DNA of 64,000 bases from Cristatella mucedo (taxonomy: Eukaryota > Bryozoa > Phylactolaemata > Cristatellidae): assembly GCA_009760855.2 (NCBI GenBank), contig WPIO01000138.1, forward strand, positions 744,001 through 808,000. Reading direction: 5' to 3'. The stretch's first letter is position 1, and each line of letters begins with the position of its first letter. The notes under the pieces are model-generated. The model was not told the origin of the DNA. It did no database searches and worked only from the letters and a program-made list of their open reading frames with translations. The translations under genes were made by a program, and so were the position numbers. This document shows, one piece after another, positions 595-61,510 of the stretch.

Positions 595-1133
595 TTACCG
601 TCCCAAAAGGAGATGTGGCGACTGTGTTAAAACTCGACCAAAACTGTTGGCTACCTGTTGTAAATTGGAAGAAAGACTCCTCTTTGCTCGGGCGTATTCT
701 AAAATGATAAGATGGAAAATGGTTATATTTTTAATAATTACCTTGTGATGCAGAGTTTTAACTCAAATCGAGTCGGAATCGCTTCGCTGTCCCTAAACGT
801 ACCTTTGAAATTGTCTTCTAATTCTGCTAGTAACTCAATGGTTACATCATGATTATCAACCGAATTCTGTAAATGAGCGAAGCTACAATCGTCTTAGTTT
901 CACGGTTGCTATCAGTCAACATTGAAACAGAAATATAACAGCTGTCATGGAATCTTACAACTTCCATACCACTTTGGAATAATATTTTTCTTTATTAATT
1001 GATCACATGTATGTTCAATTCATTCTGAAATCTTATATCAACTGCAAACTAAAACACGCCTATCTCTACTCACCTCAGACAGTACTGCATGAAAGAGAAG
1101 CCCTACGATGAGAGCGACTGTGAAGGACTTCAT
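595..1133 (-). CDS. Small secreted peptide precursor, three coding exons, apparently intact (locus 1)
   Basis: Coding exons are 1074-1133, 803-866 and 595-698. Exon 1 (60 nt) starts MKSFTVALIVGLL, a typical signal peptide with a Leu/Val-rich core and a small-residue end (AVLS), and is followed by donor GTGAGT. Exon 2 (64 nt) has acceptor TTACAG and donor GTACGT; it codes 21 residues, six of them acidic (motif ELLAELEDNF). Exon 3 has acceptor ATTTTAG and codes EYARAKR followed by 27 residues ending LLLGR and a TAA stop. The Lys-Arg pair is a prohormone-convertase site, and terminal Gly-Arg suggests trimming and C-terminal amidation. The released peptide has no Cys and no acidic residue. Intron phases are 0 and 1. 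The start was chosen because an acceptor (TTTTAG) lies six bases upstream of this ATG. Role unknown: defence, venom or signalling peptide. The gene model is inferred from splice signals and from conservation at the other loci. Confidence 0.8.
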
Positions 1134-1261
1134 TTTTCCTAAAAGCACAAGAACATATTCCTGATGCTACAGTTTTTATCAAATCTCAAATAGTGAAATA
1201 ATTTAAAAAAAGATGTTGTTAAACAGTCATAAAGTATCCCCTCCTCGGGCGCAAACCCATG

Positions 1262-1264
<3 letters not shown>

Positions 1265-1299
<35 letters not shown>

Positions 1300-1300
1300 C
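1265..1300. repeat. (CA)n microsatellite
   Basis: An alternating AC/CA run with one interruption (ACGC). It lies inside the predicted 5' UTR intron of locus 1. Confidence 0.9.
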
Positions 1301-1393
1301 TTACGTCCACAGACACACAGTGAAGCATGGATGCACCAACAATACGGCAATCCATCCAACATAATCAGAGAGATTGTATTTTTGAGCAACTCA

Positions 1394-1425
1394 CCTTATG
1401 ACAGGATACAAACCTGGCAATAGAT
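1394..1425 (-). other. Predicted 5' untranslated exon of locus 1
   Basis: On the minus strand a donor CATAAG|GTGAGT lies at 1394/1393, and an acceptor CTTTTAG lies just before the ATG at 1139. Together they define a 255-bp 5' UTR intron that contains the CA repeat. The upstream end is inferred from the TATA box and is approximate. Confidence 0.45.
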
Positions 1426-1447
1426 ACAAAAGCTGCCTGCATAGCAA

Positions 1448-1455
1448 TTTATATA
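1448..1455 (-). promoter_or_regulatory. TATA box of locus 1
   Basis: The minus strand reads TATATAAA here, 54 bp upstream of the predicted non-coding exon's donor. A start site about 25-30 bp downstream would give a short 5' exon. The related copy at 22.3-22.6 kb has lost this box with a deletion of roughly 540 bp. Confidence 0.45.
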
Positions 1456-1625
1456 GTAGAGAGATGTAGCAATCAGCTGATGTACGGGCAGCAAAGCAAA
1501 CGTAAAAAAAGTCGTTAGAATTTCAAGACAAATACCATCACCAAGAACAGTAACCACACATACCAAGCAGAGCAAGCAGGGACCTACTATGCCACTTGCT
1601 AGTTTGGCTACAATATACACACCGG

Positions 1626-1646
1626 TCTCTCTCTCTCTCTCTCTCA
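1626..1646. repeat. Short (TC)n microsatellite
   Basis: About ten CT units. This is the short allele of the repeat that is expanded at 22838-22918 and appears inverted as (GA)n at 27775-27873. Confidence 0.9.
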
Positions 1647-4234: not shown

Positions 4235-4345
4235 GGCTGTGGCCATAAAGGATCAGCCCCCACCGGAATCGAACAAACGACTAGGGGACCGAGATCGTGA
4301 AAGTAACCAGTTCACCTAGTGTGCCAGCAGTGTTCACCAATTACC
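4235..4345 (-). mobile_element. tRNA-derived SINE-like fragment
   Basis: On the minus strand an A-box-like TAGGTGAACTGGTTA is followed about 35 nt later by a B-box-like GTTCGATTCC, then a tail that resembles the tail at 53690-53800. The acceptor stem does not pair, so it is not a functional tRNA. The two copies share spacing and the GGTCC..AGTCGT segment between the boxes. Confidence 0.5.
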
Positions 4346-4479
4346 AAGCTCCGTTAGGGGAAGCTCTGTAAAATGCACTATCGTAATCATTATTGAGATA
4401 CTGGCCTACTGTTGTGGCAAATGGAGCAATTAAACTTGTGGGTTAGTTTTTAGCCATTGCCACATGTCAAAACTTTATA

Positions 4480-13649: not shown

Positions 13650-14083
13650 TGGAATGTAATGTAATGTATCTCCGTCAGTAAATCCACAAAGTCATAAAGA
13701 CCATGCGGATGTTATGAAGGAGAGTTTTTTTATAGCACACTTACAGCCTAAGCGGTTTTGGTTCGAATTCGGTAGCCAACAGACTTCGTCTCACGCAACA
13801 AAGAGAAAGTAGGAAGCATACCAGAGTCAGGAGAGCAGTTGAGTTAGTGAGTAGCATAGAAGTAGCAATTCAGGACCGCTGAAAAACATGTTCCATAGTC
13901 GGCAGTAGGAGAGTAGTTGTCGTTGCGTAAGAATTGTGGAAGCGAGTTCCACAGTCTAGGACCCGCAGAGTTAAAGCTTCTGTCGCCAACTGTCTTTAAG
14001 CAGAGGAAAGGAACAGCTAATTTATTGTCCACACAGGACCTGAGGGCGTGAACAGGCTGAAACTGATGCAGCAGTTCAGCTAG
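13650..14083 (-). mobile_element. Family B L2/CR1-like 3' fragment (minus)
   Basis: Begins at the left with the family B tail (AATGTAATGTAATG), then GTATCTCCGTCAGTAA, the family's 3' UTR. It continues into RT C-terminal codons on the minus strand (13844-14032: TVGDRSFNSAGPRLWNSLPQ). Orientation and truncation are typical of target-primed insertion. Confidence 0.85.
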
Positions 14084-22349: not shown

Positions 22350-22621
22350 TTAACCTTCAGTAAAGAGTTTCGGCACGTTTTTTATAACTGGACCAGCCTT
22401 GGTGGCCAAATTTTTTAACTTGGCATACAGATCCCTCTTAGGTCGGGCGTATTCTAAAATGATAAGATAGGAAATGGTTGCAATTTTAATTAATATCTTG
22501 CGATGAAAAGTTTGAATGCAGGTATAGTCGGAATCGTTTCGCTGTCCCTAAACGTACCTTTGAAATTTTCTTTCATTTCTGCTAGTAACTCAATGGCTGT
22601 GTCATGATTATCAACAAAATT
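22350..22621 (-). pseudogene. Secreted-peptide gene lacking its signal exon (locus 2)
   Basis: Pro exon 22558-22621 (64 nt, as in locus 1) and mature exon 22350-22453 (104 nt, identical length). The pro exon is open (motif IELLAEMKENF) and its donor GTACGT is kept, but its acceptor AG is now AC. The mature exon has its acceptor ATTTTAG and codes EYARPKR, then 27 residues with five Lys spaced as on an amphipathic helix (motif AKLKNLATKAG), ending in Gly before TAA, a possible amidation donor. The signal exon and promoter were removed by a deletion of about 540 bp. With no signal peptide, no promoter and a lost acceptor, it is unlikely to be expressed as such. The mature segment differs almost completely from locus 1, whereas the pro segment is about three-quarters alike. 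Confidence 0.75.
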
Positions 22622-22837
22622 GTGAAAATGAGCGAAACCAGAATTAGCTTTGTTTCTCGGTTCCTATTAGTCAACATTGGAATATAAATGCAAGAGCTGT
22701 TTCAGAATCTTACCACTTCCATGCAACTTTAGATTAGGATTTCGCTTTATTAATCACCAAGAACAGTAACCACGCTTACCAAGCAGAGCAATCAGGATCT
22801 ACTATGCCACTTGCTAGTTCGGCTTCAATATCCACAT

Positions 22838-22848: not shown

Positions 22849-22903
<55 letters not shown>

Positions 22904-28358: not shown

Positions 28359-28695
28359 GCATTTAAAAAGCTTGTTGTCTAGGCTCACTGGATAAACTCT
28401 AAAGAGACTTTAGAGTATAGCAAAGTGGCATTAAACTTTAAACTTTAAATATTATACTCTTAAGCCAAGATGGGTACAAAGCTCCAGATTCGCAGCAAGA
28501 CCGCCAGCTTCAACTCATGGCACAGGCAATGTGTCATTGTGTTGTAAAGTATTCTGTACCAAGTAAATGTAACACGTCAGGCTTTCACGTGCCGATTTTA
28601 TTTTAATTGTAGGCTAATTAAAACTTACATAAGGACATCACTAGGTTAAACAGGAGCACAGCGAGAATAGCAATAGCGAGATACGTCTTTTTCAC
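28359..28695 (-). pseudogene. Remnant of a secreted-peptide gene (signal exon plus decayed pro exon)
   Basis: 28629-28695 codes a strong hydrophobic stretch, KKTYLAIAILAVLLFNLVMS, followed by a donor GTAAGT. LLFNLVMS aligns with LLFHAVLS of locus 1, but the expected ATG is GTG and the exon is 67 nt instead of 60. About 200 bp downstream, 28359-28422 resembles the pro exon: it ends SLDNKLFK next to a GTACGC donor-like site. No mature exon with the EYxxxKR motif was found. Probably dead. A functional gene with an upstream in-frame start exon cannot be fully excluded. Confidence 0.5.
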
Positions 28696-33405: not shown

Positions 33406-33704
33406 ACCACAAGCTATTTCGCCTAATAGAGTTGATGGCATCAATGGTTATGCTAGGCAAAATTGCAGCTTATGACGCCAAAACGGACTTCATCGAGTGC
33501 ATACTTCTACTTGACTCCGTGGCCAAGACGAACAAGTTTAAAGATGATGATCTTGCCGCACTCATGCCCTTGTATTTAACCGGTGGAGCTTTTGCCGTCT
33601 ATGAAGGGCTGGTGGACAGTGATAAAAGTGACTATACGAAGGTGAAACGCGTACTCAGTGCTGCGTTTTTACCCGATTGCTTCCGGGCGTACGACGAGTC
33701 TTAG
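33375..33704 (+). pseudogene. Gag remnant of the Gypsy element
   Basis: 109 open codons. Motifs such as DFIECILLLDSVAKTNKFKD and LMPLYLTGGAFAVYEGL resemble the capsid region of Gypsy-type Gag (helical, 'LL.G.A...' pattern). The frame then shifts. A degenerate CCHC knuckle at 34081-34122 (CWIWGDPNHRAAGC) has Trp in place of the second Cys. Confidence 0.6.
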
Positions 33705-34203
33705 AGCAGAAAACTTCGTGAGGGTGAGTCGCCAGACGTCTACTTACCCGACCTTGTTCGCATGGCGTCCATTGACTTTGCTGCTCAAGTGGGGGGGGGG
33801 CACCTGTTTATCCCCGGAGTCTTTGCTGAAGTGGGCATTTGTGTCGGACCTACCCGATGACGTAAAGCGGCAACATCGAGCAGCGTGCTCGCTTATCATA
33901 GCTGATTTGCCCGTGTTGGTTGAAATGTCGAGGAACTTTGTCTCGTCAAGTGAAGGATGTCTCGCCGGCCGTTTTGAGGATCGAAGTACTCAGACCTGTG
34001 GCGTCGTGGTGCATTCTTGGCCGGACTCTCAAAGGCGGTACATCAACCAGCCTTTTCACAGCGGGCCGCACACGCGACTTTGCTGGATTTGGGGTGATCC
34101 GAATCATCGAGCTGCTGGGTGTGGTAAAAAAGTCGGCGATCAAAAAAACGACTAGGGGAGCCACCAACACCTGCACCAGCGTGTTCCCTTTGACCTCGGC
34201 GCG

Positions 34204-34497
34204 ACTGCCCTCCATTGACGTGATGTTGAATGACCAGCTCGCGCCAGAACTTGTTGACACTGGCTGCTCCCGCACGGTGCTTGCAGCAGTGCTGGCCTAC
34301 TTTCGTGATCTGCAGCCTGCGAGGGAGGGTATCTTGATGATTAACTTTGACCACACTCTCTGTACCTCTACGTGTAGGTACAGTATGTTAATTAAAGGAG
34401 TAGCCTTGGAGGTTCATTGTTTGTTAGCCGATATATGTGCTGGCTGGGACATCATCCTTGGAATGGATGTCATAAGAGCACTTGGCGGGTCCCTGTA
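34204..34497 (+). pseudogene. Retropepsin-like protease remnant
   Basis: Contains LVDTGCSRTVL, the DTG active-site motif of retroviral-type aspartic proteases, and about 65 residues on DIILGMDVIRALGG, the flap-distal I-L-G-x-D-x-[IL] motif. The frame stops at 34497 and does not connect to the RT. Confidence 0.75.
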
Positions 34498-35039
34498 GGG
34501 CATGGCGGTGAAGGCCAAGTTGACTTCGTTAATGAGGCTCCAGTGACCCGATGCATTCGTGGCGAAAAAACAGTGTAACCTGCCCTCGCTCTCCCCCGGC
34601 CACCGACGTCTCGCTCGTTGCAAAGGTCGGAAATTCGAGCGAGCTTACAGTCTCCGACCAAGATTTTGCTGCCGTATTCCACGATGGTGCGTGGCACGTG
34701 CTCTGGAACTGGAAAGAAGGCGGACAGGCCCCCTTGCTGCAGAACCGCGTGTCCTCATATAGGATCTCGGCTGAGGTAGAAGCAGAATATGAATGGGAAG
34801 TAGAGGACTGAATTAAGTGTGGTTGGCTTCAACCTTTTCACAGGGAGTGCGGCTGGCTGATTTCCTTGATGGTGGTGGTCCAAAGTAGCAAAGGGTAAGT
34901 GAGGCCTGTCCCCGACTATTGCTAGCTCAACCAGTTCATGTCGAGCCACACGGCTGAAGGGGACGTGTGCAGTAATAAACTTCGTGCATGGCGGCGAATG
35001 GGACGAACATTAAGCCTCGTGGACCAGCTTAGGGCCTAT

Positions 35040-35830
35040 TTGCAAATTCACGTTGACCCATAATTGTGAAAGTACCAGGTGGCTGAATTTCATGGCCGTC
35101 AATATTGCCTGACTCACCTGGGTTTCGGCCTTAACGTTGCACCGAAAATAATGAATGTCATCTTAAATAAAAGGTTGTCCATGGAGGAGCGAGCCAGATT
35201 CGGCACAGATTTGGATGTTGACGATATTTTGGCGAACAATGATATCGTCTCAAACGAGCGTGAGATGTAGCTTCTCCGCGAGTACGGACTTAAAGCAAAA
35301 CCGCCTGAAAAGTTCGAGGGTGGTCGTGTCCTAGGCCTCCGCATTGACAGTAAACACAAATACCTCGTATGGCGCCGAGATTATGCCATAGGGTCTGCAA
35401 TCTCGTCAGTGGAAAATTGTGGTGCGATGCGAGCAGCATCACTAGTGGAACGTACCTTGAGATTGATGGTAAAGTGGTTGAGGATGCCTCGTGGCTTCGA
35501 AAGCTATATGCCGAAAAGCCGGCGATACCTTGCATACCAACACGACCGAGCTAGAAGCCGTCATCAAAGGCCCTAACATCGCTATTACGTGGGGACTTCA
35601 GTAAATCCTAATTGCGACTGATTCGACTTCGGTGTTCGGTTGGCTAAAGTCATTGATCAATGGGGATAAACCCGTGAGGACGCTTGGCATGGGAGTGGCG
35701 ATAATTTGACAGTTGGGCTTACTCTGAGATATTGTAACGGAGTGCAATCTGGAGACGACTGTAAGCCTAGGAGGGTCGCCAGAGAACAAAGCGGACCAGC
35801 TGACGCGAGTACTGCAAAGGTAGTTGAAGC
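35040..35830 (+). pseudogene. RT and RNase H remnant of the Gypsy element
   Basis: FHGRQYCLTHLGFGLNVAPKIM (35090) and LDVDDILANNDIV (35212, the [YF]xDD catalytic block with Asp before Val) identify the palm domain. VLGLRID follows at 35329. After further frameshifts, LEAVIKGLNIAITWG and ATDSTSVFGWLKS (35550-35655) look like RNase H. Stop codons lie at 35268, 35601 and elsewhere. Confidence 0.7.
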
Positions 35831-35879
35831 TCACGACTTGCCGTACCCATGCCATCGCTCCTGTGGTCAGTTTGGCGCT

Positions 35880-36600
35880 CCCAATATCGACCTCAAGCAA
35901 TTCCAAAATCTGCACCGCATAGGCGTCGATAGGACGCATTACCTAGCGAGGCTACTTCACCCTAATACGAACATCCACAGAACCGATGTAGAACTAGTTG
36001 TTCAATCCTGTCTTCGCTGCAGATCAGTGGATATGTCGCCGATTTCATGGCAGCGAGGCAGTCTTTAAGTCACCGAACCCTGGTCTCGTCTTGCAATCGA
36101 CGTCACACAATACTGCAACGAGAAATATGTGAAGCTGGTGGATTGTGGGCTTAGCAGATTTACGCTGTGATGGCACATTCCTAGCAAAGATGTGTACCTT
36201 ATCACCAGAGTGCTGGAGAAAATATTTTGAGAGAGAGGCCCACCCACACAGCTTCTGATGGACAAAAGTGCCTCGTTCGGATCTGAGGCAGTTCGGTGTC
36301 GCTGCAAACGCTGGGGCGTTGAGACCATCTACCAATGTGCTTACCGATCTGAAGGCAGCAGCATAGTTGAATTCATGCATCGGACTATCAAGGGCATGGC
36401 AGCTCGCACCGGTAGAGGAGTACTAGATTTGGTGTACTGGTACAATTCCACGCTGACTGAGGGGATAAAGGGTGAAACCGTGCCTCACAGGCGGTTATTT
36501 ACGTATGAATGGCGGTGCCCACTCCAGCCAAAGAAGGGACAGCACTGCAACACCCAATCTCGCATTAACTACACAGCCGGATAAAGGGTTTTTGTGAAAC
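35880..36600 (+). pseudogene. Integrase remnant of the Gypsy element
   Basis: A zinc-binding segment ends in SCLRCRS (36010). AIDVTQYCNEKYVKLVD (36095) carries the first catalytic Asp, and SASFGSEAVR with VEFMHRTIKGMAARTG (36265-36415) the later DDE region. YWYNSTL follows. The frame is broken in at least four places. Confidence 0.75.
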
Positions 36601-42311: not shown

Positions 42312-43210
42312 TTACATACCTCGATTTAGTCTCATTGCAGCAGACCAAAATAGTCCTGTATGTATTTTTAAAAGTTTCGGTTCACAGTTGACCGCCAAAT
42401 GATTGACCCCTGAGATTACCTTGTGGAGCTTAGATGCCACGCTCCTCTTGGCTTCGTCGTATTTCAAAATGATGAAATTAATCAGCCTTCATAATCGTTC
42501 AATTGGTTCTCACAACTTGACTTTGATCACAGCTACAGTGTATCCAGCTTGTCCTGCTCTCCCGTTAGTTACCTCTCAGAACCTAAGCCACTTCAGAATT
42601 GAGTGCAAGGCCGAAGTAGGTTGTCTAACCCAGATTCTGCAATACATACTTGCAATAATGAGGTCTTTGACCACAATTCATACGAGACTGTTGATACTTA
42701 GCCAATTATTTAGTGCCAACTCATGGTACAGGCATTGGTGGAACGTTGATAAGACGCTCCTCTTTGCTTTGCCGTATTCTGAAACGGCTCAATTGATCAG
42801 AAATCCTTATCGTTCAAGTAAATGTCACGAATCAATCATAATGGCAGATCCAGCTTATTTCGCTGGCCATGCTCTCCGGCTACTTACGTCTCTAAACCTT
42901 GTCCACTTCAGCATCGACATCACAGCTGAATTCAGCATGTACCTCCTAATTCTGCATTATATGTTCAAAATAATACACCCTTTCACAACGACGCACACGA
43001 TGCTCCAGATTTGAAACCAATACGTCAACCTCAATTCTAGGTGCGGATAATCTGAAATTGTTTTTGTTCATTAATTCGCACCAACTAAATGTCTGGCTTA
43101 GAGTTTTCATAAGGTAAGTTGATTTCAAGCTAAGGCTAAATAAAATATACCGCTGTCATCACCGGGTTAAACAGGATAAGAGCTCAAACCAGGCCTGTGA
43201 GTTTCTTTAT
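42312..43210 (-). pseudogene. Secreted-peptide gene copy with duplicated exon 2-exon 3 cassette (locus 3)
   Basis: The signal-exon remnant 43151-43210 is exactly 60 nt: the ATG is now ATA, there is a TGA at codon 9, and LFNPVMTA remains before a GTATAT donor. It is followed by two tandem cassettes offset by 315 bp. Cassette 1 has pro exon 42888-42951 (64 nt, AG acceptor, GTAAGT donor, two TAG stops) and mature exon 42678-42778 (acceptor TTTCAG, YGKAKR, then 26 residues with one Cys to TGA). Cassette 2 has pro exon 42573-42636 (64 nt, AG acceptor, GTAACT donor, two TAG stops at other codons) and mature exon 42312-42463 (YDEAKR, then 43 residues to TAA), whose acceptor AG is GA. Exon lengths and introns (199 and 109 bp) match the family. 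The nonsense codons make it non-coding now. The 203-codon plus frame at 42403-43014 is a shadow. Confidence 0.75.
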
Positions 43211-43589
43211 TTGCATTTAAAAAAATGGACAAAACCCGGCGACCATCTTTTTTGTACAAACTGAAGAACTTAACCAGTCTATCATGTTGCTATTCAAATG
43301 CATAGCGTCGTTCGTTGTAATTTTAATCTCGTGATTGTCCTACCAATTTGAGACAATAAGTACCACAGTTAAAGCAAATTTTTTGAGCACCAGCATTCCC
43401 GTCGGCTCATTGGGATTTCACAATGACGTAGACACTTGAGTACGAAGCCTGCGAGACTGGGATATGCATTCAAACTGAATTGGGTGCGTACACTTTAATA
43501 TTGCTCTTCCAAAGAGAACGAGTTTCGTGATTTTGGTATGAAAATATTTATGATGATGCAAATCCATTCCTAATAAATCTATTTACAAG

Positions 43590-44191
43590 CTATAATAATA
43601 TTGCAGTTGATAAAGCTCCCTCAGATAATTTAATCTCTCTCTGGGCGCTTTAAATTTAATGCAAATGGAAATGCGATTGAATGGTAAGTAAAATCATGTT
43701 TGATATATGAAAGAATGAATAACATTGTTTGGGGTGACATGCACAGGGTCAGCATGCAAATGTGGTTAGAGGCAGCATGCACAGTGTCAGCACCCATGAG
43801 CACATCAAGGACGAATCAGAAGGACCCACTAAATGCTGTCCTAAATAGGTCTGTTAAAGTTCCTTTTAAATGTGGTCAGGTCAGGGGATGTTCTGACTCT
43901 GGTCGTGAGGGAGTTCCAGGCTTTGGGAGCATACGAACTAAATGCCTGGTCTCCAAAGGATTAAAGGTTTGTAAGAGGTATTTCTAGACTGTTGGATTCC
44001 GAAAAGCGGGTGGTACGATGCTTAACCTGATGGGGGAGTATATCTGAGAGATATGCTGGAGCCAAAAAATGAAGGGACCTGAAAGTAAACGACAAAATCT
44101 TAAAGTCAATCCGTTTCTTGACTTGTAGCCAGTGCAGGTCGGCGAGAAGTGGAGTAATGTGGCAACTGCGAAGCTCACGACAGACAATCCT
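43590..44191 (-). mobile_element. Family A L2/CR1-like, 3' half of an interrupted minus copy
   Basis: 3' UTR at left, then the RT C-terminus on the minus strand (CHITPLLADLHWLQVKKRID and following). The frame continues across the nested element into 45351-45815. Confidence 0.85.
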
Positions 44192-45350
44192 AGCTGAGGA
44201 GGTTTCCACTCTCCCTCTCGCTGATGTGATTGCCAAGCACAATCTGGGCTTTCACTTCTATGCGGATGACACTCAGTTGTACCTTTGCTTTGATCCCTCC
44301 CAGCCTTCGAGCACCTCAAATTCTCTCAACTCACTTGCTGCATGCATTGATGACATCCGATCATGGATGGCAGCAAATTTTCTAAAACTAAACGATGATA
44401 AAACTAACTTACTAGTTATGGGCAAACCTAGTGTTATTAAGAAATTGGAAAGGCTGACTTTCAAAATTGGCTCTGCCAGCATATCTCCAGTTGCATCAGC
44501 TCGAAATCTAGGTGTCATATTCCAAAGCGACCTCTCGTTAGACGACCACATCAGCTCCACAGTCAAATCAGCCTATTTTCAGCTTCATAACATTGCTAAA
44601 ATTAGGGCTAGTTTAGATAAGGATACCACGTCCAAGTTGGTCCATGCATTCGTGACATCTCGTCTCGACTTCTGCAACTCACTGCTTACTGGCCTACCAG
44701 CATGTGCGATCAGGCGATTGCAGCTGGTGTAAAACTCTGCAGCTAGGCTTGTCTGTCGTGAGCGTCGCAGTTGCCACATTACTCCACTTCTCGCCGACCT
44801 GCACTGGTTACCAGTCAAGCAACGGATTGACTTCAAGGTTTTGTCGCTCACTTTTAGGTCTCTTCATTCTATGGCTCCAGCCTATCTTTCAGATATACTA
44901 CCCCATCAGGCAAAGCTTCGTACCACTCGCTTTTCGGAATCCAACAGTCTGGAAATATCTCGTACAAACCTTAAATCCTTTGGAGACCGTACATTTAGCT
45001 CGTATGCTCCCACAGGCTGGAACTCCCTCCAGACCTGCATCAGAACATCCCCTGACCTGACCACATTTAAAAGAAACTTAAAAACATACCTATTTAGGAC
45101 AGCATTTAGTGGTCCTTGTGATTCGTCCTCGATGTGCTTATGCGTGCTGACACTGTTCATGCTGCCACTAACCAAATTTGCATGCTGACCCAGTGCATGT
45201 AACCCCTAACCATGTTACTCATTCTGTTTGTTTTTCAAGCATGATTTTACTTACTATTCTATTGCGTATCACTTTGCAGCAAATGTAAAGCGCCTAGAAA
45301 GAGATTAAGTTCTCTGAGGGCGCTTTATCAAGTGCAATATTATTATTATT
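44192..45350 (+). mobile_element. Family A L2/CR1-like copy nested inside another
   Basis: 5'-truncated just before LPLADVIAKHNLGFHFYADDTQLYLC; the catalytic FYADD is intact at about 44255. The frame is open to 44730, then a TAA in VQNSA and a shift interrupt it. It ends with the AAGCGCCTAGAAAGAG block and an ATTATTATTGTTATTATTG tail. It is inserted in the opposite orientation into the minus copy, between sequences that are otherwise contiguous (CTAGCTG | TGCACCAGCTGC). Confidence 0.9.
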
Positions 45351-47079: not shown

Positions 47080-47522
47080 CGTCTCTCTGTCGCATTCTAT
47101 ACCGTAGCACTCAAAGCATATTTACAGAGATTTAAGCGGTGCTCACAACTAAATTTAATCAGCGGTTCAGCCTGTTGGACTGGTACCGCTCTCTGGTTAG
47201 TTTCCCTTACAAATTGTGTCCTCGGCAGCTTTCAGCTGAGTGCTCGAATTGAAATTTGTCTACACAGTCTGCACTAACGTCTACCACGGGATGATTACAT
47301 TGTTCTATTTAGTTTGCAAAGCAATTAGCATGCAGCAGCTAATAAAAAAAATGGGCTTCAAATGATCGCTTTGGGAAAACTCTATTGCTGATCTCTAGTA
47401 AACATATCCTTAAGTAGAGAGAAGCCTCTTTTAATGAATTTTTTAAACTTAATCTGACTTACCGCAGCCATCATGCGATTGAACAGCCGCACATAAAATA
47501 CAGCCGTAGTGAGAGACTTCAT
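47080..47522 (-). pseudogene. Secreted-peptide gene, decayed (locus 4)
   Basis: Signal exon 47463-47522 is 60 nt with an intact ATG (MKSLTTAVFY) and donor GTAAGT, but the hydrophobic core now carries two Arg and an Asn. Pro exon 47211-47268 is 58 nt, keeps phase 1 and has AG acceptor and GTAAGG donor, with one TAG (motif TQLKAAEDTI). Mature exon starts at 47096 after a TATAG acceptor, where AATGCGACAGAGAGACG replaces the EYxxxKR codons and a stop follows. Intron lengths of 194 and 114 bp fit the family. Splice sites are better preserved than the reading frame, so it may still be transcribed but is unlikely to make a peptide. Confidence 0.65.
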
Positions 47523-50470
47523 TTTCCCTGGTCTATAGAAAAACCTGTTGGCGCTATGAACATGAAAATGCGAAGATGAAGCTGATTGTGTTTACAGATT
47601 CTGGTCTAATGTATCAAACATTAGCAGTCGGATTGAATTTCACGGCGGAAATAGTTAATTTGTACCAAAGAGTTGCTTAGGTAAAATCACTCGCTAAAAA
47701 GCAAATCTATTTGAGTAAAATCATTGGGATTTTGCTAAGAAATACGCGCTCTAATAAATAGTCTGTAAAAATTCAGACTGGATTTTACTGCAGGAGTTGC
47801 TTGATTCCAGAATCAAGTACATGTAAGAATCCAGTTACTTACGAAGGTTGTTAAACATTGTTGACAGAACGAGAATTCAGGTATTAGGAAATCGTATTAA
47901 TGGAATATGCATGTTCAATAGCTATCAATAAACTGAAGGCGAATCAAAACAGACAGTTCTAATGAGGACCACGTTAGAATACTTTTAACAGTCGACGCAA
48001 TTAGCATGTTGCAGTTAGGTGATGCAGCAAACCGCAAATCAAACGCAACGAAAGCCTTACAAATTAAAGAAAAATGTCATCCCCGGGAATACTCGCCACA
48101 TTTACCGAATTGAGCTAGTAGGGTCTACCATGCCGATAGCCAGTTTGGCTACAAATTAAAAATCTACCTAGCTCACTCACTCTCTTACTATCCTGTGGTT
48201 TGAATGAGGTAGTGCACGGTTGCCCAACTGACAGCGAAAAGGCTTATACTCGCACAACTGAAAACTTTCAAAGGTTAGGAGTCTAATTAATTGTCGCTGC
48301 TTACCGTTTGGTGCAATACAATGCAGGAGCCCATGAAAGGCAGCTAGCAAGTCAAAGTTATAGCATCTTGGAAAAACGCTGGTAGTAGACATGAACACAA
48401 ATCAACAATAGTCAAAAGATTAGTCCAAGTGAAGAGCAGGCAAAGCAGAGGTTAGTGTGAAAGCGCCAGCAGAAAGAGCAAGGCAAGCACAGACTGCAAG
48501 GTTCATGGCTGATGAAAGATCTTCCAAGTCTGAAATGCCGGAAACAAGGAGCTTCCTGTGAAAGGCGTGTCACTTGTCAAACATCCGCACCACGATGCTG
48601 AGAGGCAAAGTTTGCTACGAGCTTCGGCAATATGTCCGTATCAGCTATAACCACTGAGTGATTTAGCAATTGGTCATTGCTTCCACAGAGCAGCCCAAGG
48701 CGTGTGGATCAGGCATGTGCGTTGAAGGAACGTTGTCAGCCGCCCATGCTGCCTCAGCCCTGAGTAAGTTGAGATGGCTTCAAGCTATCGATCTACACTT
48801 TCCGGCCATGCCAGTGCTGAAGACCAGACAGGACCTAGCTCTATATCTCTTAGTTACGGCCACCGAAAATAAAATAAAGCAGCCGGAAACTATTAATGAG
48901 TACCTTAGGGAAAATACTGCTTTTGCGACATTACTGAGTTGTTTACTACCAGACAACTGGAACGACAGCTAATATTATCGAAGCGTCCAAAATATTGAAA
49001 TCGGCATTGATGCCATGGAAAAAAACTTTATCATTTTCAAATGTGCTTCGAGTGTTTGCGAACATTTTCTTATTTTTTGCTATATGGTCTCCCATCTTTT
49101 TTTCCTAACGCTGTCGGCGAGCTTTAATAAAATAATCACTTAGGTGTTCTTGAGTATGTGTCATGACACTGGGCACCTCTAGAATAAGCAATGAAGGCAT
49201 TTAGCAACGTATAATCAAATGTAGTCAATGGCCAAACTTATTGACTAGATTATAGAAGCTTTTTTGAACCTCAGCACTGATAAACCCAACATATATTTGG
49301 TTCTCCTATGTCAAACTTTAAATAATAATTTAAGAACGTGTAATAAGTTTTATGTTAATGGACAACCACCAACCGAGGATTGTAATTAGTACTAGCTACT
49401 CAGACGATCTGCATTTTATGTCAATACTTTAACAGGGTGCACTGTCTCTGACTCTTCCGATATCATCTATAAGTAAATATTAGGATTTGTTTGTTTATTT
49501 TTAAGATGATTTACACCTCTGCTCTTGCTTTGGTCAACCATTTACTAGCCTATTTGTTGAACTACATTACCACCCTGGTTGTATGTGTTGCATTAGAATG
49601 GCAGAAAATGCATTCGCATTCAGTGACAAAAAAATCAAGCCGTAAGTTAAGAAAAGATCCAACATGTATTAAGTTCCCAAAAATTGGAATGCACAAACCT
49701 TTAATTTAGACAGCCATAACTTTCAATAAACTTAAGTACGACGGCTGGAAGCGTTCTTCTGACTTTTCACTAGGCAGTCGCATTTCCAACGTTTAGCCTG
49801 CTCAATACTAGATAATAAATTGTGGATATTTGCATCTGCTTAGAAAATAATTATACGAAACGTTTGATTATTGATTTAATTTATTCCGTCCAAACTTCTG
49901 AAGGTGGGAATAATCTATTACACAGCTGTGCGATGAGGCACATTCGGTTAGATTGAGGATGCAGAGCAAGATGTGTGCCTGCGGGTGCATGGCTACTTTC
50001 ACTGAGTGCTAGTTCTTGTGGAACAGCACTATCTACAAGCGAGCAGTCATTCGACTAAAGAATTTGGTATTTCAAGAATAGGTCTCTTTATTGTCGCACT
50101 TCAACCTACCTATTCTGACTACTTCCGTGGACTTGCTGAAATTTTTAACTAGATTTAGGGATATTTGCAGAGCCCGTGAAAACTGAAAAAGCATGCTCAC
50201 GCCTTAAAATGCCAAGCTCACTATAACTGTGCAATGGAAAAATTCGAGGCATGTTGTATACCAGTAGGTAAAGTAAAACAAAATAGGTTCTTTTAGCTCT
50301 TCATGCCATTGGAATTATTTTATGAAGCAAAAAATTCTGAAGTGCTTCACAAGCGGCTACTTCATAGGAAGCTGATGTCTACCGAAGTTTGGTAACATTA
50401 CCTATGTCAATTCAGGTTGATGCACATCGGGAGAGATTGCACCCCTCAAAGCTGTCGGCCTGCTCCATAG
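47460..50470. repeat. Segmental duplication, third diverged copy of 1-3900
   Basis: Shares GGGTCTACCATGCC...AGTTTGGCTAC (48120 against 1585), GTTAGTGTGAAAGCGCCAGC (48452) and the ACCTACCTATTC landmark (50105). The TC microsatellite is reduced to a few units. Small frames at 48670-48972 and 49491-49709 are not conserved in the other copies. Confidence 0.7.
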
Positions 50471-51545: not shown

Positions 51546-51599
51546 ATGAAAAATAATAGCGTATACGAAAACGTCTTTTATTTATAATTAAGAACTGGT

Positions 51600-53690
51600 C
51601 GGGTACATTTTTGCCTAGGTCCGCCGAGACACGTCTCGGTCGTGACCAGGGTAGCGACCAGGATGCGGCCAGACCTCAGGTGTCGGGCGCGCTTGCAGGG
51701 GTGTCTCATGCCTGACAGGAGTAACCCTCCTTACAAGCGCTACGGTGGTTGCATGTGGTGCAGGCGAGCGCGCAGCAGTGTACCTGGCCGCCGCGCGTTG
51801 GAGGGTGGCGCCACCTAGCCGAACCGACTGTAGCTGTCTAGCTCCAGCAAGAGGGCTCGCACGTATAGCCCGATTCGCCAGGGATGCTGGCCCCCGGGGG
51901 AGGGGGCGCTGACTCTGATGGTGTTGCCTCCCGCTGGGGCATCTCACCTCCATCTGCTTCGGGGCCCGAGGACGCTGGGGCGCTCTTCTGCGGCAGTGAA
52001 TGTGGCTCCTCGTGATCAGCCGGCGCCAGGGGATCCTGTGTCAGCTGTGCTCCGCCTTGTGGGCACTTTGCGGTGCCCACGAATCGCGGCCAGACCCTGG
52101 CCGACCCATTGATAGCGTCCGCTACACAAAGCTGCCAGGAGCCAAGGCAGCCCATGACGAAGGCTCAGTGCTCCACATGATGCCCTCTGTGACACGAACC
52201 TCCTCCACCAGCTCGGTGTATTTGAGGAGCTTCCTCTCTGCTGCCGACTCTAGCACGAGCTCCCCGTTGTCAAACGGGACCGTTACGTCCACCACCACAG
52301 CATAGGCGCCAATGTCAATGACAAGGTCCGGGCGACGTAGCAGGACCGTGTCGAGGTCGTGGTGTTGGTCCACCCGCGCATGCCTCATCAGTGCCCACGG
52401 CAGTGCCTCCAGGAGCCGGTCCAGGACCGCGTCGTGACGTTCCGTGATGGCGACCATCATGCTCGGGCAGCTGTTCAGGACATGCGGCAGCATCTCAGGC
52501 TGACCTCAGCCCTTACGGCAGAGGTGCTCTGACTCTGGGTCGAATCTGGCCCTGGCAGCAGCCACCGGGAGGAGATCCAGCCTGGCCCGAAAAATAAAGC
52601 GCCAAGCGGCAAAATTAACACCAAGACCTGAAAAGAGGAAGTGGGTGTGGTTAATGTGGCTGTCCGTTGCCAGACAGCGAACCAATTTCTCCTGGTCTAG
52701 CCTCGAGCGCCAATCTGCCGTCCATGTCTTGTCTGAGTCCTGCCAGATGGTGGAGACCATGATGGTAGGCGCGAATTGAGGGAGCTCATGGTCTCCTTCT
52801 TTCCAGTGGAGCTGGATGGTCTCAGCCGTGTACTGGACCCTGACACCTAGGCGTCGGAGCGCCTGGCGGGCCTCCAACCAGAGCGATCCCAACCCGTACG
52901 CACGGTATTTTCTAAGGTGCCACCGGACAGGGAGACTGTTCAGGCCTCGTCAGAGGGTGCTCCTCCGAGCGCATTGATGGCATCGTCAAGCCCTTCTCGT
53001 GCAACAGCAGCCACCGTCCAGTCCGAGGAAGACAGCATGCGACATGCCTGCGTGGCACGAAGAATGTCCACGTCCGGCGAGAGCGGGAGGAGGCCGAGGC
53101 AACCACTGAGGCGTGAGGCGTGAAAGAAGCCCACAGCGGCTCTGTCAAGAAGGGAGCAAACTGACCTGCAGAAATTCTTGACCGCTCTGCCAACCGGGAC
53201 AAGGAACTTCTTTTGGAGCCACTTCGCACTTCCCGGATACTCCAGTCTGGGCATAAGAAACGTGAGGAGAGCGTTCATCTTCTGCCACTGGGCTAGCAGA
53301 GACTGCTGGAGCAAGGCTATATCCCGGGTTAGGAGAGAGACTGTCGTCTCAACATCCACCCGAGGGTATGCGAAGCCCTGGGGGGGGCACCCAGATATAG
53401 GTGTGCCTCCTCGTCACCCAGCATCGGAACCGGGGAGCAGGCGATGGTGAATGCCAGGCTCTCCGACGCCGCCAGGTTGCGCACCAGCGTCCTGCATTTC
53501 TCCGGTCTGAACTTGAGCCCTATGCTCGAAGCCACACAATGTGCTCGATTGAGCTGGGGCTGGAGGGAGGACGTCGAGCCCGAAAATATGGTCAGATCAT
53601 CGGCCAGAGCGCAAACGGAGAACTTGGCCGAGCCAAGGGCATAACCATGCCTCTCTGCCCCAGCCGCTAGCCTTTAGTATAGCGATAGAA
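51600..53690 (-). pseudogene. R2-like non-LTR retrotransposon (RLE type), 5'-truncated, GC-rich
   Basis: On the minus strand the RT palm contains ALADDLTIFS (about 53605) and GLKFRPEKCRTLV (53520). The thumb region has SLLAQWQKMNALLTFLMPRL (from about 53300). It ends in a restriction-like endonuclease domain: LPHVLNSCPSMM (52490, part of the CCHC motif), ITERHDAVLDRLLEAL and RRPDLVIDIGAYAVVVDVTV (52340-52270, the PD..D catalytic core). This arrangement is known from R2/NeSL/Hero-type elements, which cut DNA with an RLE and prime reverse transcription there. A run of eight G at about 53381 coincides with a frameshift, and a stop separates the linker frame (52506-52892) from the endonuclease frame. 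GC content far exceeds the flanks. The plus-strand frames here are shadows. Confidence 0.85.
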
Positions 53691-53800: not shown

Positions 53801-53859
53801 GTTAGCCAATACAGCTCAACCATCACAGCATTCAATAAGTACATCTGATTCGTCCAATG

Positions 53860-57000: not shown

Positions 57001-59105
57001 CTACCAGTAGACATTCGAACGTGCTTAATTTGCAGAAAATGTAGTGCTCGGAAATATATTTTGTTCTATGAACGTCCTATATCAACTGTATTATTTTCTA
57101 AATTATTATTATCATTCAGCAAGTGCGTGGACCTGGATGCAGTGAGTCTGAAGCTAAAGTACGGTCAGATGCATGATGAGCTGATGCTAGTATTTTGTCT
57201 GCCACTGTTTCAAAAAAGGAATCTGCCAACACCGCCTAGATAGGTAACTGCTTGTTTCAATTGCTCAGTCTTTTGCTTTCGCGTACGATGTAATCGTACC
57301 CTTCTCACCGATTAAACTACGTTATTCCGATATTTTTCAACTTTTCAAGGCACTTGAATTTTTTTAATCAAGATTATTCTAAAAGATTGAGTTACTTGAT
57401 TTGCTTTCCAAAAATCTGCCTTATAAAGAGGATATTATTTAGCTCCTAAGCGTTTCACAGCAGACTAATTAGACGCTGCCGGCTAGCAATTCTTACGTTA
57501 TTTCTACACGCTTGATTTTATTGTAGGCTCTTCCTGAGAATTTTACTACTAAACATTTGGGTACGCAATTTACGTGGCATCTGCAAAGTGACTAGAAAGG
57601 CATTCAGATCTCACCTAGCACTGTGCGATTGACTCCATATTATCATTATCGTTGACAATTATTAGTGTTTGCGAGAACTATTGTGGCTGCTTAAAACGCC
57701 GAACCATGGCCTTGATCAAGTCTTGGCGGTTGACACTAGCCAATTTTTGCTACAATTGCAATAAAAAGAGCGAGAGTTTAAACTTGCATTTTGCAGTTTA
57801 CATTCTAGCCGAAATTGGTTAGCCTGCTATGAGCTCCAAAGTCCTGCATATTCGGCTTACAGCACTCAGCCAGGCACAGAATGTAACTCGGCTTACCTGA
57901 AAATGGCAAGATTATGAGGCTGAATCCTCGTGCAACGTCTTAGAGGATCTATGAAGAGAAAGAAATATGCTAGCCAGACACCCGAACTCTTCACGAACGG
58001 AGTCTTACTTTTCTAGCTTAACAGCTTTTCAAACCTTCTTATTTCACTTGTATTTACATCTTTACTGTGCATGGCCAATTATGCTTTAAGGTGAGCATGA
58101 GCGTGCAGCAAACCTAATGCAGGTCACAGGTGCAAACGTTACCGAAACTAGTTTGGACGTCAAGCCAAGGCAGAGTCTGTCAGAAACTTTAAGTAATACT
58201 CTGAATAAATAATTCAGAAATAAATTATCTGATTATAGATGCTTGCTCCATAGGATGTGGTTGTGGCTGCCGGTTACAAGTAGCTTAATCAGAGGTCACC
58301 GCCAGCATGCATTCTACGGTGTCTCGTTCTGAAAGAAACGTTAAACATTGCGACCACTTCGTTCCAATCATCGCATCCCATTAATAGCACGTGAAGAAGG
58401 ACTAGCGGATTTTCTAAATTATATCTTTGCATAGTGAATGGCGTGTCATCTATCATTGGAACTAACTCTTTTCATGAGCGAAATAAAAAATATGTTAACA
58501 ATTGATCACCTGATATTGCAATTCATTTCATAGGGAAGGCTGCTCAACGCGCCGAGTTCACGACGTGAGAAACGGAATACAGTCTTAAGTTATGTAAGGC
58601 AACTTCAGTCTTAGCTGGCAGCTGTTGCTGTGTTATAATTGTTGGGATTATACAAAGAGCCAGCCGAGTAAGTGCAGCCGTTGATTTAATCATTGCCAGC
58701 AACCAGCCTTCTCAGTCTCATATGACTTTACCTTAACTAGCACGATCAGGAGGAAATTGCATGCAAACTAGATGTGAACGAATCAAAGTTACTTATATTC
58801 AAATGACACAGTTTATGTAAGCTGTTCCTTGGGGCTTACACAAGCCAGTCACTATGATTACCCTTGGAGGCAAATTCAAAGTATAACTCCATCTCGATGG
58901 TCTTCTTTTCAAGTTATTCGATTATAGAGAAAATGTAATACCAGTCCTTTTTTGCCAGGCAATATCACCACGGGTTACCTTTTGATCGTTGAGCCTAGGT
59001 GTCGCGTTTAATTTAAAAAACCGGCTGCATAAAAGTACAACTGCCACATTTCTTTATCTTTGCGGGATATAATTAAATTCAACTATTGTGAAATATATTA
59101 AACGA
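54086..59105. repeat. Repeat-unit blocks equivalent to 5.0-11.5 kb; no gene
   Basis: Blocks align with 5040-6560 (54090-55600) and with 9060-11500 (55890-57900); the 57.9-58.7 kb part again resembles 11.8-12.3 kb. No peptide-gene exon was recognised in this copy. From 58.75 kb to the locus 5 start I see nothing further. Confidence 0.55.
56520..57115 (+). mobile_element. Old L2/CR1-like family A 3' fragment
   Basis: CTCACCACCACTCATTGACC (56545) onwards matches the RT C-terminus. The 3' UTR continues to an ATTATTATCATT end at about 57115. Confidence 0.65.
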
Positions 59106-59735
59106 ATGAATACTGTCGCTTTAGCTCTCGTATTATCTTTGATATTCTGTCTAGCCACAGCAAGTAGAAGTAAAGCGTTACTAGGTCAAACGTAAATGTG
59201 ATGAGGTGGCTTGACCAATTAAAGGCTTACATTGAGCTTTCAAAAGACGTACTAGCGAAACATTAACAGAATTTGTAAGGAGAACTAATTTTTGCATGTT
59301 CATAAACTAATTTCTAAACACGCCCTATCACCACGAAAATTTGGCAGTTGTTTCTTTTTCGAAAGATTAAAAAAAACATCTGACCTAAGCCCGCAGGTAG
59401 AAACTAAAGTTGAACAGGTTTTAAGAGGCACTCCCCTTGATTGCTACACTAGTTACATTGCCTATTGCGCTCTTCGTCTTCAGTACGTCCTCCGTACTTC
59501 CTAAGTTGTCGGCTCATATATTCTTGCATTTGTCCTCGTTTCAAAATACGATGAAGCGAAGAGGTTTTTGGTTGAATCACTTAAAGTTGTTCTCAAGGCA
59601 GCTCCAGTTATACTAACGGCGAGCACCAGATGTTATTTCAGCAATTGGAAAAGAGGCCGTAGCACCGTAGCGGTTTTTTTGCAGAGAGGATTAAACTACT
59701 TGCTTGACTTGAATGACTTCTTCATCCAAATATAG
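59106..59735 (+). pseudogene. Secreted-peptide gene with all splice dinucleotides changed (locus 5)
   Basis: Signal exon 59106-59165 codes MNTVALALVLSLIFCL, a good signal peptide. Pro exon 59364-59427 (64 nt) has the motif SDLSPQVETKVEQVLRG. Mature exon from 59545 codes YDEAKR, then FLVESLKVVLKAAPVIL and more, to a TAG at 59733. Each boundary differs from the intact locus 6: exon 1 donor GT to AG, exon 2 acceptor AG to AA, exon 2 donor GT to GC, exon 3 acceptor AG to AA. The exonic frames are nevertheless open. Intron positions and sizes (198 and 117 bp) agree with locus 6, and 3' flanks match over several hundred bases, so 5 and 6 are a tandem pair 1900 bp apart. A GC donor can function, but the other changes make normal splicing unlikely. 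Confidence 0.75.
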
Positions 59736-59824
59736 TGTCGTGATGATATTTCAATTCTACAATTGTGGAGCTTATTGCATGGTACAGACATGCTGTGCTA
59801 GAACAGGTAACCTTTAAGACGGCG

Positions 59825-59830
59825 AATAAA
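59825..59830 (+). promoter_or_regulatory. Polyadenylation signal downstream of locus 5
   Basis: AATAAA in the context GGCGAATAAAGCTTCT, matching CGCGAATAAACCTTCT downstream of locus 6. Confidence 0.55.
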
Positions 59831-60109
59831 GCTTCTCAAAGTCATTAGGGTTTTCTTGAAGGACACTAGCAGGTGAAATCAGAATATTCAGGATTCAATA
59901 GCTATCTTAACCAATTATGACAATAAAATAACTGAAGGCTGCCATACTCGTATGTCGGCCGTCGCAAATTCTCTCCACGCAGGCAGGTGGTGTACACGGC
60001 TAACCCAGTCAATTAAAATCATTGTATCTCTACCGTGATAAAGCCGAGGAAGTCCACAAGCTCAAGGGACATAATGTTCGTCACGCATTAGGTAACCGTC
60101 TGTAAAATT

Positions 60110-60298
60110 ATGAGAAAAAATTCTCCCATAAAAAGACTAGCTGGCGACCTAAGAAGGCCAACGAAGGTAGCTTACTCGTTTATTAAAGCCAATTTCAATT
60201 CCAAAGCTGCTAAAGAACGGGCTGCTAAAGAACCAGCACAGAAACCGACAACCAAACCTGCCGCAGCGAAACAAAACAAAACCAGAGGGATAAATTGA
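60110..60298 (+). CDS. Small Lys/Ala-rich open frame, unrecognised
   Basis: 62 codons, very basic. The C-terminal half is built of KAAKERAAKEPAQKPTTKPAA-type low-complexity sequence; the N-terminal half (NSPIKRLAGDLRRPTKVAYS) is more complex. The preceding 100 bases read AEEVHKLKGHNVRHALGNRL in another frame, so it may be a frameshifted remnant of a basic protein such as a ribosomal or linker-histone-like tail. No signal peptide, no poly(A) tail and no splice context that I can support. It lies between loci 5 and 6. Confidence 0.25.
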   Translation: MRKNSPIKRLAGDLRRPTKVAYSFIKANFNSKAAKERAAKEPAQKPTTKPAAAKQNKTRGIN

Positions 60299-61005
60299 AG
60301 ACTGGCGCTTTAGCGATGGCTCCCTAGTAAGCCTGTTTTCATCACCAAAGGCGGTGACCTAAGGATTCGCAGGTAAAGGCCTAAAGGAATACTCGACAAA
60401 ACCCGCACCTGCTCATACGTTCGAAGTTAGCAAGAGGACCTTGACTCCCACACGCTACCTACGCTTTGGCCACGCAGGCTTATTTACAAGTCACACAGCA
60501 GGTTAAGCGTTTGTGAATTTCAAATATACTTAAGCTTTAGCCGACCGATCCTACGAGAACTATTCGGCAGGTTCGTCAATAAACCTTTCTTTATAATCTG
60601 GCCATCAGATACTAGGTCAAAATTAGATTTTCGTGATTGCCCCAATGGTCCCGCAGCTTTGAGAATGCACGTAAATTCATCGAGGCAACTTATCCTTAGA
60701 CAAAAGCGTTTAGGTGTGCTTACCTTTGGAGCTTAGTCAGGCGCGTCTCTGGGATTGGCCATGGAGCCGAGTTTCTAAATCAATTTGATCGAAATGGTCG
60801 TTTTTCAGTTTCATACCATTCTCGCAAAAACCTATTACCTCTGCTTTTTTACCAACTTGTAGCACCGTGAGTTGTCATTTAACCGTAGCGCCTGCGATTC
60901 ACCTTATACTAAATAATTAAACCAGGCCGCCTAATAAATCAATTACCGCTTCTTTAGCTTTGCTGGCACAAATGTTCTTAATTTATTGGGAACTATTTTT
61001 AGAAA

Positions 61006-61510
61006 ATGAAGACAGTCGCATTCACCCTCGTCTTATGTTTGATGGTGTACCTGGCGGCGGCAGGCGTAAGTAAAGCCGTGCTTTGTTAAACTACGTGGAT
61101 CCATTTTGGAAAGCTAACCACTTGACAGCTTACGGCAAGCTTTTCTTAGAGCGACTAGCCAAACGTTAATGAATCTGAAAACAAACGCTAACTTACTATT
61201 TGCTTAATTATTAAGTAATTGTGATGCACGACATGTCGCTTCGAGTTTCGGCACATCATCTGGGTTTCAGCCTTTAGAAGACACGTCTGATCTAAGCTCT
61301 GACGTGGAAACCAGAGTTGAAAAGGTTTTCAGAGGTAATTCCCTCGATTGCTGTACTAGTTACACTGCCTTTTGCTCTCTTCGTCTTAAGTAAATTCTCA
61401 ATACTTCCTAATAGATCACCTCTTATGATCTCGTTCTTTTCTTCGTTTTAGAATACTATGAAACGAAGAGGAATTTTTTTGCGGACATAATCCGCCAACT
61501 TAGCGGGTAG
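61006..61510 (+). CDS. Small secreted peptide precursor, three coding exons, apparently intact (locus 6)
   Basis: Exons 61006-61065, 61271-61334 and 61452-61510. Exon 1 (60 nt) starts MKTVAFTLVLCLMVYL and ends in AAAG, a plausible signal-cleavage region; its donor is GTAAGT. Exon 2 (64 nt) follows a TTTCAG acceptor, codes 21 residues with six acidic ones (motif SDLSSDVETRVEKVF) and ends in phase 1 at donor GTAATT. Exon 3 follows acceptor CGTTTTAG and codes EYYETKR, then only 12 residues (NFFADIIRQLSG) before TAG. Cleavage at Lys-Arg and amidation at the terminal Gly would give an 11-residue peptide. An acceptor (TTTTTAG) four bases before the ATG suggests a separate 5' UTR exon, as at locus 1. 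If exon 2 is read through its donor, the frame continues to LDCCTSYTAFCSLRLK and a stop, an alternative Cys-containing end. Function unknown. Confidence 0.75.

Follow-up and report, generated by a model that had tools for sequence, protein, structure and literature searches.

What do the very small split genes in a 64,000-nucleotide stretch of the genome of the bryozoan Cristatella mucedo encode, and are they genes at all? The stretch, hereafter called the window, lies on contig WPIO01000138.1 of assembly GCA_009760855.2 (572 Mb, 688 contigs) and corresponds to C42:744001-808000 in the contig names used here. A preliminary description made from its letters had proposed a diversifying family of secreted peptide precursors spread over three exons each, with venom, antimicrobial or neuropeptide function. 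We find that the gene family is real and that, as judged from its sequences, it is a multigene family of putative secreted prepropeptides dispersed in the genome. It is apparently undescribed, being new as a family and known as a functional kind, and it is apparently restricted to some animal lineage. Its members are probably precursors of alpha-helical antimicrobial (host-defence) peptides with a conotoxin-like gene architecture, a reading that draws on the gene structure, the genome-wide occurrence, the constraint on signal and pro parts, the mature-focused divergence in some close pairs, and the charge and amphipathicity of the peptides.

Two intact genes in the window share a three-exon plan

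Two copies in the window, A1 and F, are intact. A1 (1133-595, minus strand) consists of a 60-nt signal exon at 1074..1133 encoding MKSFTVALIVGLLFHAVLSE and followed by the donor GTGAGT, a 64-nt acidic pro exon at 803..866 encoding NSVDNHDVTIELLAELEDNFK plus the first base of a Glu codon (acceptor ACAG, donor GTACGT), and a last exon at 595..698 that reads EYARAKR^SLSSNLQQVANSFGRVLTQSPHLLLGR to the stop and carries an amidation-type Gly-Arg end. Its introns of 207 and 104 nt have GT/AG borders, and a polyadenylation-type signal AATAAA is read at 510..515 on the same strand. On the other side of A1, the element TATATAAA at 1448..1455 (minus strand), 322 bp upstream of the ATG, may be functional, and it is followed by a possible non-coding first exon of the 5' untranslated region (UTR), which ends in CATAAG before a GTGAGT. 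F (61006-61510, plus strand) is built in the same way, with a 60-nt signal exon at 61006..61065 encoding MKTVAFTLVLCLMVYLAAAG (donor GTAAGT), a 64-nt acidic pro exon at 61271..61334 encoding PLEDTSDLSSDVETRVEKVFR plus the first Glu base, and a last exon at 61452..61510 reading EYYETKR^NFFADIIRQLSG to the stop, with an amidation-type Gly end; introns of 205 and 117 nt have GT-AG borders, and AATAAA stands at 61713..61718 on the plus strand. Splice phases are 0 and 1 in both genes. The exon lengths, the acidic pro exon, the EYxxxKR opening of the last exon, the phases and the Gly or Gly-Arg ends given in the preliminary description were thus all seen in A1 and F, whereas the 58-nt pro exon that it had listed once did not turn up when pro exons of 52 to 73 nt were scanned for.

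For the exon search of the window, nine genes that belong neither to the window nor to its cluster supplied one DNA profile hidden Markov model (HMM) per exon; the reversed window served as control. These models recovered all three exons of A1 (expectation values, E, of 6.8e-11, 1.5e-5 and 3e-7, in exon order) and of F (5.7e-4, 1.6e-8 and 2.2e-4). Across the window, exon-1 matches were found at 47530 (-), 28693 (-), 1144 (-), 43212 (-) and 60995 (+) (E 7.8e-14 to 5.7e-4), with a weak one at 59105 (+) (0.075); exon-2 matches at 61260 (+), 42959 (-), 47279 (-), 877 (-), 59374 (+) and 42646 (-) (E 1.6e-8 to 8.9e-4), with a weak one at 22628 (-) (0.02); and matches to the start of exon 3 at 719 (-), 42790 (-), 22463 (-), 59534 (+), 42474 (-) and 61441 (+) (E 3e-7 to 2.2e-4). 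Nothing is claimed for further weak matches at 19902 (-) (exon 1, 0.087), 55243 (-) (exon 3, 0.25) and 10754 (+) (exon 3, 0.45). The reversed window gave no exon-HMM match below E 0.097. Because models made from genes elsewhere recover the window exons while the best match in the reversed window reaches only this value, a chance assembly of open reading frames (ORFs) can be rejected.

The family is dispersed over the genome

A pattern taken from the DLSPELEAEMEE region of exon 2 in the members then known, with up to three mismatches allowed, occurs at 29 places in the genome and at none in the control. Seven of these are the already-known members that shaped the pattern and 22 are new; 27 of the 29 were read. 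They lie on C592 (eight), C37 (five), C10 (five, spaced by about 10.3 kb), C42 (four), C288 and C122 (two each) and, with one place each, on C76, C171 and C644. An exon-1 pattern, likewise derived from known members, gave eight places against none in the control, all of them upstream of a known exon 2 and in the same direction. Exon 3 was less tractable: with the first spacing its pattern gave five places against eight in the control, and with a corrected spacing 20 against 11, of which eight are family members and the other 12, unread, are taken as chance. A local census of 264 kb around the window, with profiles from nine local copies, counted at least 18 copies at C42:695-883 kb, mostly decayed, as well as a further open gene, C42_695, at C42:695215 (+), in which Lys-Lys replaces Lys-Arg. 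The genome-wide searches brought many more members to light, several of which have typical cationic amphipathic helices past Lys-Arg. Membership of the exons in a larger gene was considered and rejected: no Pfam match exceeded a cut-off, and 17 of the 19 open genes have an AATAAA no more than 420 nt from where their last exon begins. With exons too short to stand out as ORFs, annotation could easily miss a family of this size.

Precursor anatomy and predicted peptides

The following figures refer to the 19 loci readable as open genes, which represent 17 distinct precursors (identities over 136 pairs). Exon 1 measures 60 nt, apart from one of 54 nt, and exon 2 measures 64 nt, apart from three copies with 61 nt; intron 1 spans 170-259 nt and intron 2 104-117 nt, and the splice sites are intact throughout. 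All 19 genes start with a hydrophobic N-terminus of 18-20 residues, judged by eye to be a signal peptide. The pro part, with a net charge of -3 to -8, precedes the mature peptide in 19 of 19, and exon 3 opens with EYxxxKR or a near variant before a peptide of 12-43 residues, the basic place being KR in 16 genes. Mean pairwise amino-acid identity is 0.51 in the signal, 0.53 in the pro part and 0.60 in EYxxxKR, and falls to 0.24 in the mature part. The peptides had previously been called unrelated past Lys-Arg; they are indeed highly divergent, yet by eye a common helical pattern can be made out in many of them, frequently hinged at Gly-Pro or Ala-Pro.

Untrimmed, every mature part but that of F (0) has a net charge between +2 and +11 (18 of 19 genes); A1 and C42_695 drop to +1 once a C-terminal basic residue is removed. 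Examples of the sequence past Lys-Arg are GLWSKVKQLAIKYGPTALKIAKVLG (C122_670), KFWKKAKKFFRKALPYVIKYGPPVAKALGK (C37_116) and GLRDALKKIAKMVIAEALKKGR (C592_2420). The hydrophobic moment, taken as the best 18-residue window and compared with shuffles, was higher than in the shuffles in 12 of 13 peptides (p<0.05, uncorrected; five of the 13 come from broken copies). Taken together, the mature parts appear to be mostly cationic and amphipathic, with a putative helix.

The amidation-type ends (Gly with or without a following Lys or Arg, in 13 of 19 genes), together with dibasic cleavage, would also suit neuropeptide or hormone precursors yielding amidated receptor ligands, and the F peptide is short enough at 12 residues. 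Neuropeptides are usually conserved, however, also between paralogues, whereas in this family no region is less conserved than the mature part (0.24, with 0.51-0.60 in the others); tandem variant copies, charge and amphipathicity likewise speak against such ligands, which makes this reading very improbable.

A second alternative is that the genes encode venom or skin-toxin peptides, made in a gland and deterring predators or subduing prey by lysis of animal cell membranes. Amphipathic helices can be cytolytic, and three exons, two introns and a fast-changing mature exon are reported for most conotoxin superfamilies (PMC3862624). Yet none of the 19 mature parts contains a cysteine, nothing ties expression to a gland, and cationic amphipathic helices behind an acidic propiece suit antimicrobial precursors at least equally well, so that we regard a venom role as unlikely. 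Among the three functions first put forward, the data hence favour antimicrobial or host-defence peptides.

Signal and pro parts look constrained while some mature parts diverge

Among ten genes compared over signal and pro parts, the proportion of nonsynonymous differences (pN) is below that of synonymous differences (pS) in 45 of 45 pairs, including nine of nine pairs for A1 and nine of nine for F; the pairs are non-independent, many synonymous divergences (dS) are near saturation, and the A1/F pair and some C42_695 pairs are nearly even. The signal and pro parts thus look constrained, as would be expected from past translation. These figures bear on the possibility that the whole family is dead, all copies being relics whose open frames remain only through recent duplication. 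As such a family would have it, breakage affects most of the C42 cluster and several copies elsewhere, and the F copies are near-identical duplicates; the pN<pS pattern in every pair, the intact splice sites of all 19 open genes (with GC donors in three) and one close pair with residue-changing divergence concentrated in the mature part argue the other way, and we consider extinction of the family highly improbable.

Close copies differ in where they diverge. C122_627 and C122_670 are identical over the 144 coding bases that end with Lys-Arg and differ at four of 304 intron bases, against 24 of 71 aligned bases and 21 nt of length in the mature part (p 1.4e-15 versus introns). Mature synonymous divergence is also high in this pair (dS 0.43), a pattern that favours the retention of old cassettes, or exchange, over an origin purely by selection on new point changes. 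The tandem copies C592_2399 and C592_2420 are 99.6% identical outside the peptide (0.9 kb compared) and differ in 15% of bases inside it, that is, at 10 of 66 mature positions against 3 of 833 elsewhere (p 5.6e-10), and nine of nine changed codons alter the residue. C288_3772 and C288_3799 differ at 11 of 70 aligned mature positions and, in their introns, at 10 of 312 (p 3e-4). The upstream edge of divergence is sharp at the Lys-Arg codon in the C122 and C592 pairs, and the C592 pair has a sharp downstream edge as well. Together with the genome-wide members, the cationic amphipathic helices and the pN<pS carrier, the mature-focused divergence in several close copies bears out the proposal of a diversifying secreted family of split peptide genes.

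A proposed working and what weighs against it

If the genes indeed encode host-defence peptides, the signal peptide of exon 1 would route the precursor into the secretory pathway, and the acidic propiece would offset the charge of the peptide, which is mostly cationic (up to +11), and hold it inactive until cleavage. A protease of the furin or prohormone-convertase type would then cleave past the basic pair, and a C-terminal Gly, with or without Lys or Arg, would be converted to an amide in the products of 13 of the 19 genes; a predicted amidated product is, for example, GLWSKVKQLAIKYGPTALKIAKVL-amide. The released peptide would become an amphipathic helix, often Gly-Pro or Ala-Pro hinged, on microbial membranes and disrupt them. 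Gene duplication, partly in tandem arrays, in which flanks, introns, signal and pro parts stay alike and the mature cassette diverges, would generate a defence repertoire. We infer expression, secretion, processing, amidation, helix folding and antimicrobial action from features of the DNA and its translation. On this reading the family would be a source of candidate new helical antimicrobials, and its main interest lies in the clean mature-peptide focus of divergence in some close copies and in its size.

A number of observations weigh against this reading. Many copies are pseudogenes genome-wide, with most of the C42 cluster and several copies elsewhere broken, and of the seven family copies in the window only A1 and F are intact, the remaining five being partial or broken. 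Calls of open or broken are fallible both ways, as single-base insertions or deletions among near-identical copies (C592 versus C644, for instance) may be assembly errors. Even among the open genes, three have a GC donor after exon 2 (C592_543, C592_423 and C592_449), and the cleavage place departs from KR in three, being KK in C42_695 and TR in C592_423 and C592_449. The hydrophobic moment of C288_3799 is not significant (p 0.20). Both intact window genes have weakly charged mature parts (A1 +2, or +1 trimmed; F 0), and their peptides are less typical of antimicrobials than those of C37, C288, C592 and C122.

Nor is focal divergence universal. Two C37 pairs have diverged no more in the mature part than in the introns (p 0.65 and 0.46), no mature mismatch separates C592_2399/2409, C592_2420/C644 or C592_423/449, and C592_423/436 differ by a single mismatch and a single gap. 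Divergence of the 3' UTR is elevated along with that of the mature part in the C122 pair (9 of 100 against 4 of 304 in introns) and in the C288 pair (9 of 100 against 10 of 312), and the latter also differs at 5 of 20 bases in the EYxxxKR part. Contrasts between residue-changing and silent differences are small: ten of ten residue-changing alone gives p 0.06, and signal plus pro versus mature in C37_105/188 gives p 0.05.

Homologues, finally, were not detected. A protein-database search, which relies on shared five-residue words and thus has limited sensitivity and uncertain coverage of animals, returned no candidate at E<=1, one candidate at E<=10 that fell short of E 10, and, with a 16-row alignment at E<=10, 1406 candidates, none of which reached E 10. 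Eight sequences (one without exon 1) gave nothing over the cut-off in Pfam; a resemblance of C37_116 to the defensin propeptide family was set aside at E 0.13. Searches of PDB sequences gave a best E of 1, no match, 4e-4 and 0.4 (both C122_670), and 0.019 with a profile, none of which is counted as homology; the two C122_670 matches are to the repeat protein 8vd6 (E 4e-4, five weak repeats summed) and to the 'myeloid antimicrobial peptide' 1fry (E 0.4). Among the titles and abstract openings searched, no literature report of the family was found, which is a weak negative.

The focal divergence could reflect selection on the peptide with conversion keeping the flanks alike, or a targeted process. 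That targeted hypermutation or cassette exchange diversifies the mature segment, with introns, signal and pro exons staying near-identical, is unlikely, and slightly more so given that the C288 differences start before Lys-Arg and that the 3' UTR is raised in both the C122 and C288 pairs. Such a process, if real, would let the germline of an invertebrate generate diversity in its defence peptides. The C592 tandem pair offers a clean natural experiment on the focal evolution of peptide arsenals, in which selection with flank homogenisation becomes directly testable against targeted mutation or exchange.

Decayed copies and surroundings in the window

What the window contains of the family is for the most part decayed, a point missed in the preliminary description. 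Its six loci of invariant plan were too generous a count, because five of the seven window copies are decayed; the plan is right for A1 and F. A2 (22350..22635, minus strand) retains exon 2 with its acceptor lost (E 0.02) and an exon 3 reading EYARPKR^DLYAKLKNLATKAGPVIKNVPKLFTEG (E 8.4e-6), and no exon 1 was found; it shares with A1 53 of 82 mature and 85 of 104 intron-2 positions. A solitary decayed exon-1 copy lies at 28621..28693 (minus strand, E 3e-11). The profile HMMs find a degenerate copy at 42444..43212 (minus strand) with remnants of exons 1, 2 and 3, those of exons 2 and 3 twice, and a further decayed copy at 47197..47530 (minus strand) has an exon 1 with ATG and an exon-2 remnant (E 7.8e-14 and 1.3e-5); its exon 3 was not found. 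F2 (59092..59649, plus strand) is 68-70% identical to F and has lost its splice sites (exon 1 E 0.075, exon 2 4.1e-4, exon 3 1.3e-5). F itself (C42:805 kb) has two further copies, at C42:813 kb and C122:863 kb, which look identical to it across the exons and could be haplotypes or duplicates of recent date. Blocks at 786-791 kb and 825-829 kb are duplicated within C42, and F recurs near-unchanged on C122; recent segmental duplication or unmerged haplotypes would account for both.

Remains of a retrotransposon lacking long terminal repeats directly follow F at 61815-63967 (+), with an RVT_1 match (E 1.4e-22) in the second ORF and none in the first. Related fragments lie at 28958-29869 (E 1.6e-9) and 44073-44732 (E 2.2e-4, below the cut-off). 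The region 33646-36068 (+) is richer in guanine plus cytosine (GC) and has retroelement-like ORFs, one of the two scanned showing a weak gag-asp_proteas match under the cut-off (E 0.0017). GC content peaks in the window at 51615-53413 (-) (57% in 52-54 kb), where three ORFs of 141-157 amino acids lie; the two scanned against Pfam matched nothing at E<=0.01. The exon-1 scan also turned up a second repeated signal-like ORF (of a form like MLLTxxxALLTLxCFxxSLxx, followed by GTGAGA), which occurs at window positions 13857 (-) and 18887 (+) and at C42:858788 (-) and C42:879510 (+), and may be part of a transposon.

Elsewhere in the assembly, the 21-kb mitochondrial contig C688 contains ORFs that recur at a distance of about 2.1 kb and also in inverted orientation. 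Among codes 4, 5, 9 and 13 it best fits code 5 (AGR=Ser, ATA=Met, AAA=Lys, by eye at COX1 positions). By eye, apart from COX1, one strand has the order nad1, nad6, cob, nad4L, nad4, nad5, and nad2 and cox2 lie on the strand opposite the other recognised protein genes. This gene order occurs in molluscs such as Katharina. Similar mitochondrial orders are reported for a mollusc, a brachiopod and nemerteans (PMC2728741). The contig by itself thus points to an animal that is probably a lophotrochozoan.

Comparison with known peptide systems

Conotoxins are cysteine-rich disulphide toxins with a conserved cysteine framework. PMC3862624 describes, for most of their superfamilies, three exons and two introns with an exon of its own for the mature toxin, introns conserved within a superfamily, and point changes and insertions or deletions mostly in the mature exon. 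The Cristatella genes share the three exons, two introns and separate mature exon as there described, but their mature parts are cysteine-free, mostly cationic and predicted to be helical, and no cysteine framework was found.

The PDB entry 1fry, which we take to be the sheep cathelicidin SMAP-29, has in common with C122_670 a short 'KYGPT-L-I---G' stretch (phmmer E 0.4, not significant). The large cathelin domain of cathelicidins is absent here, and the likeness is read as convergence or chance.

Dermaseptin-type frog precursors have an acidic spacer and Lys-Arg, and a Pfam family exists for the signal and propeptide of frog skin antimicrobial peptides. The start of C122_670, GLWSK, presumably resembles dermaseptins. 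In pipid frogs, antimicrobial peptide genes form a multigene cluster with some pseudogenes and constrained signal peptide and cleavage sites (PMC3731216). Precursors of frog skin peptides (dermaseptin/brevinin type and pipid) are similar in their conserved signal and hypervariable antimicrobial domain; they differ in that no sequence homology was found, the Pfam propeptide did not match any of the eight sequences over its cut-off, and signal, pro and mature parts occupy three separate coding exons here, with phases 0 and 1.

Mussel myticalins, as portrayed in PMC12294457, are lineage-specific, cysteine-free, cationic, often amidated and hyperdiverse, with many pseudogenes and a phase-one coding intron, traits they would share with the Cristatella family. 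In the same account their anionic part is C-terminal and they have two coding exons, unlike the N-terminal acidic part (19 of 19) and three coding exons here. The conotoxin- and frog-skin-like plan without detected homology may be convergence. By analogy, the gene plan appears nearest to that of conotoxin genes and the peptide type nearest to frog skin antimicrobial peptides and myticalins; the family would resemble these systems in its working and stands apart from them because one defining feature of each is missing, namely the cysteine framework, the homologous propeptide and the C-terminal anionic part, respectively.

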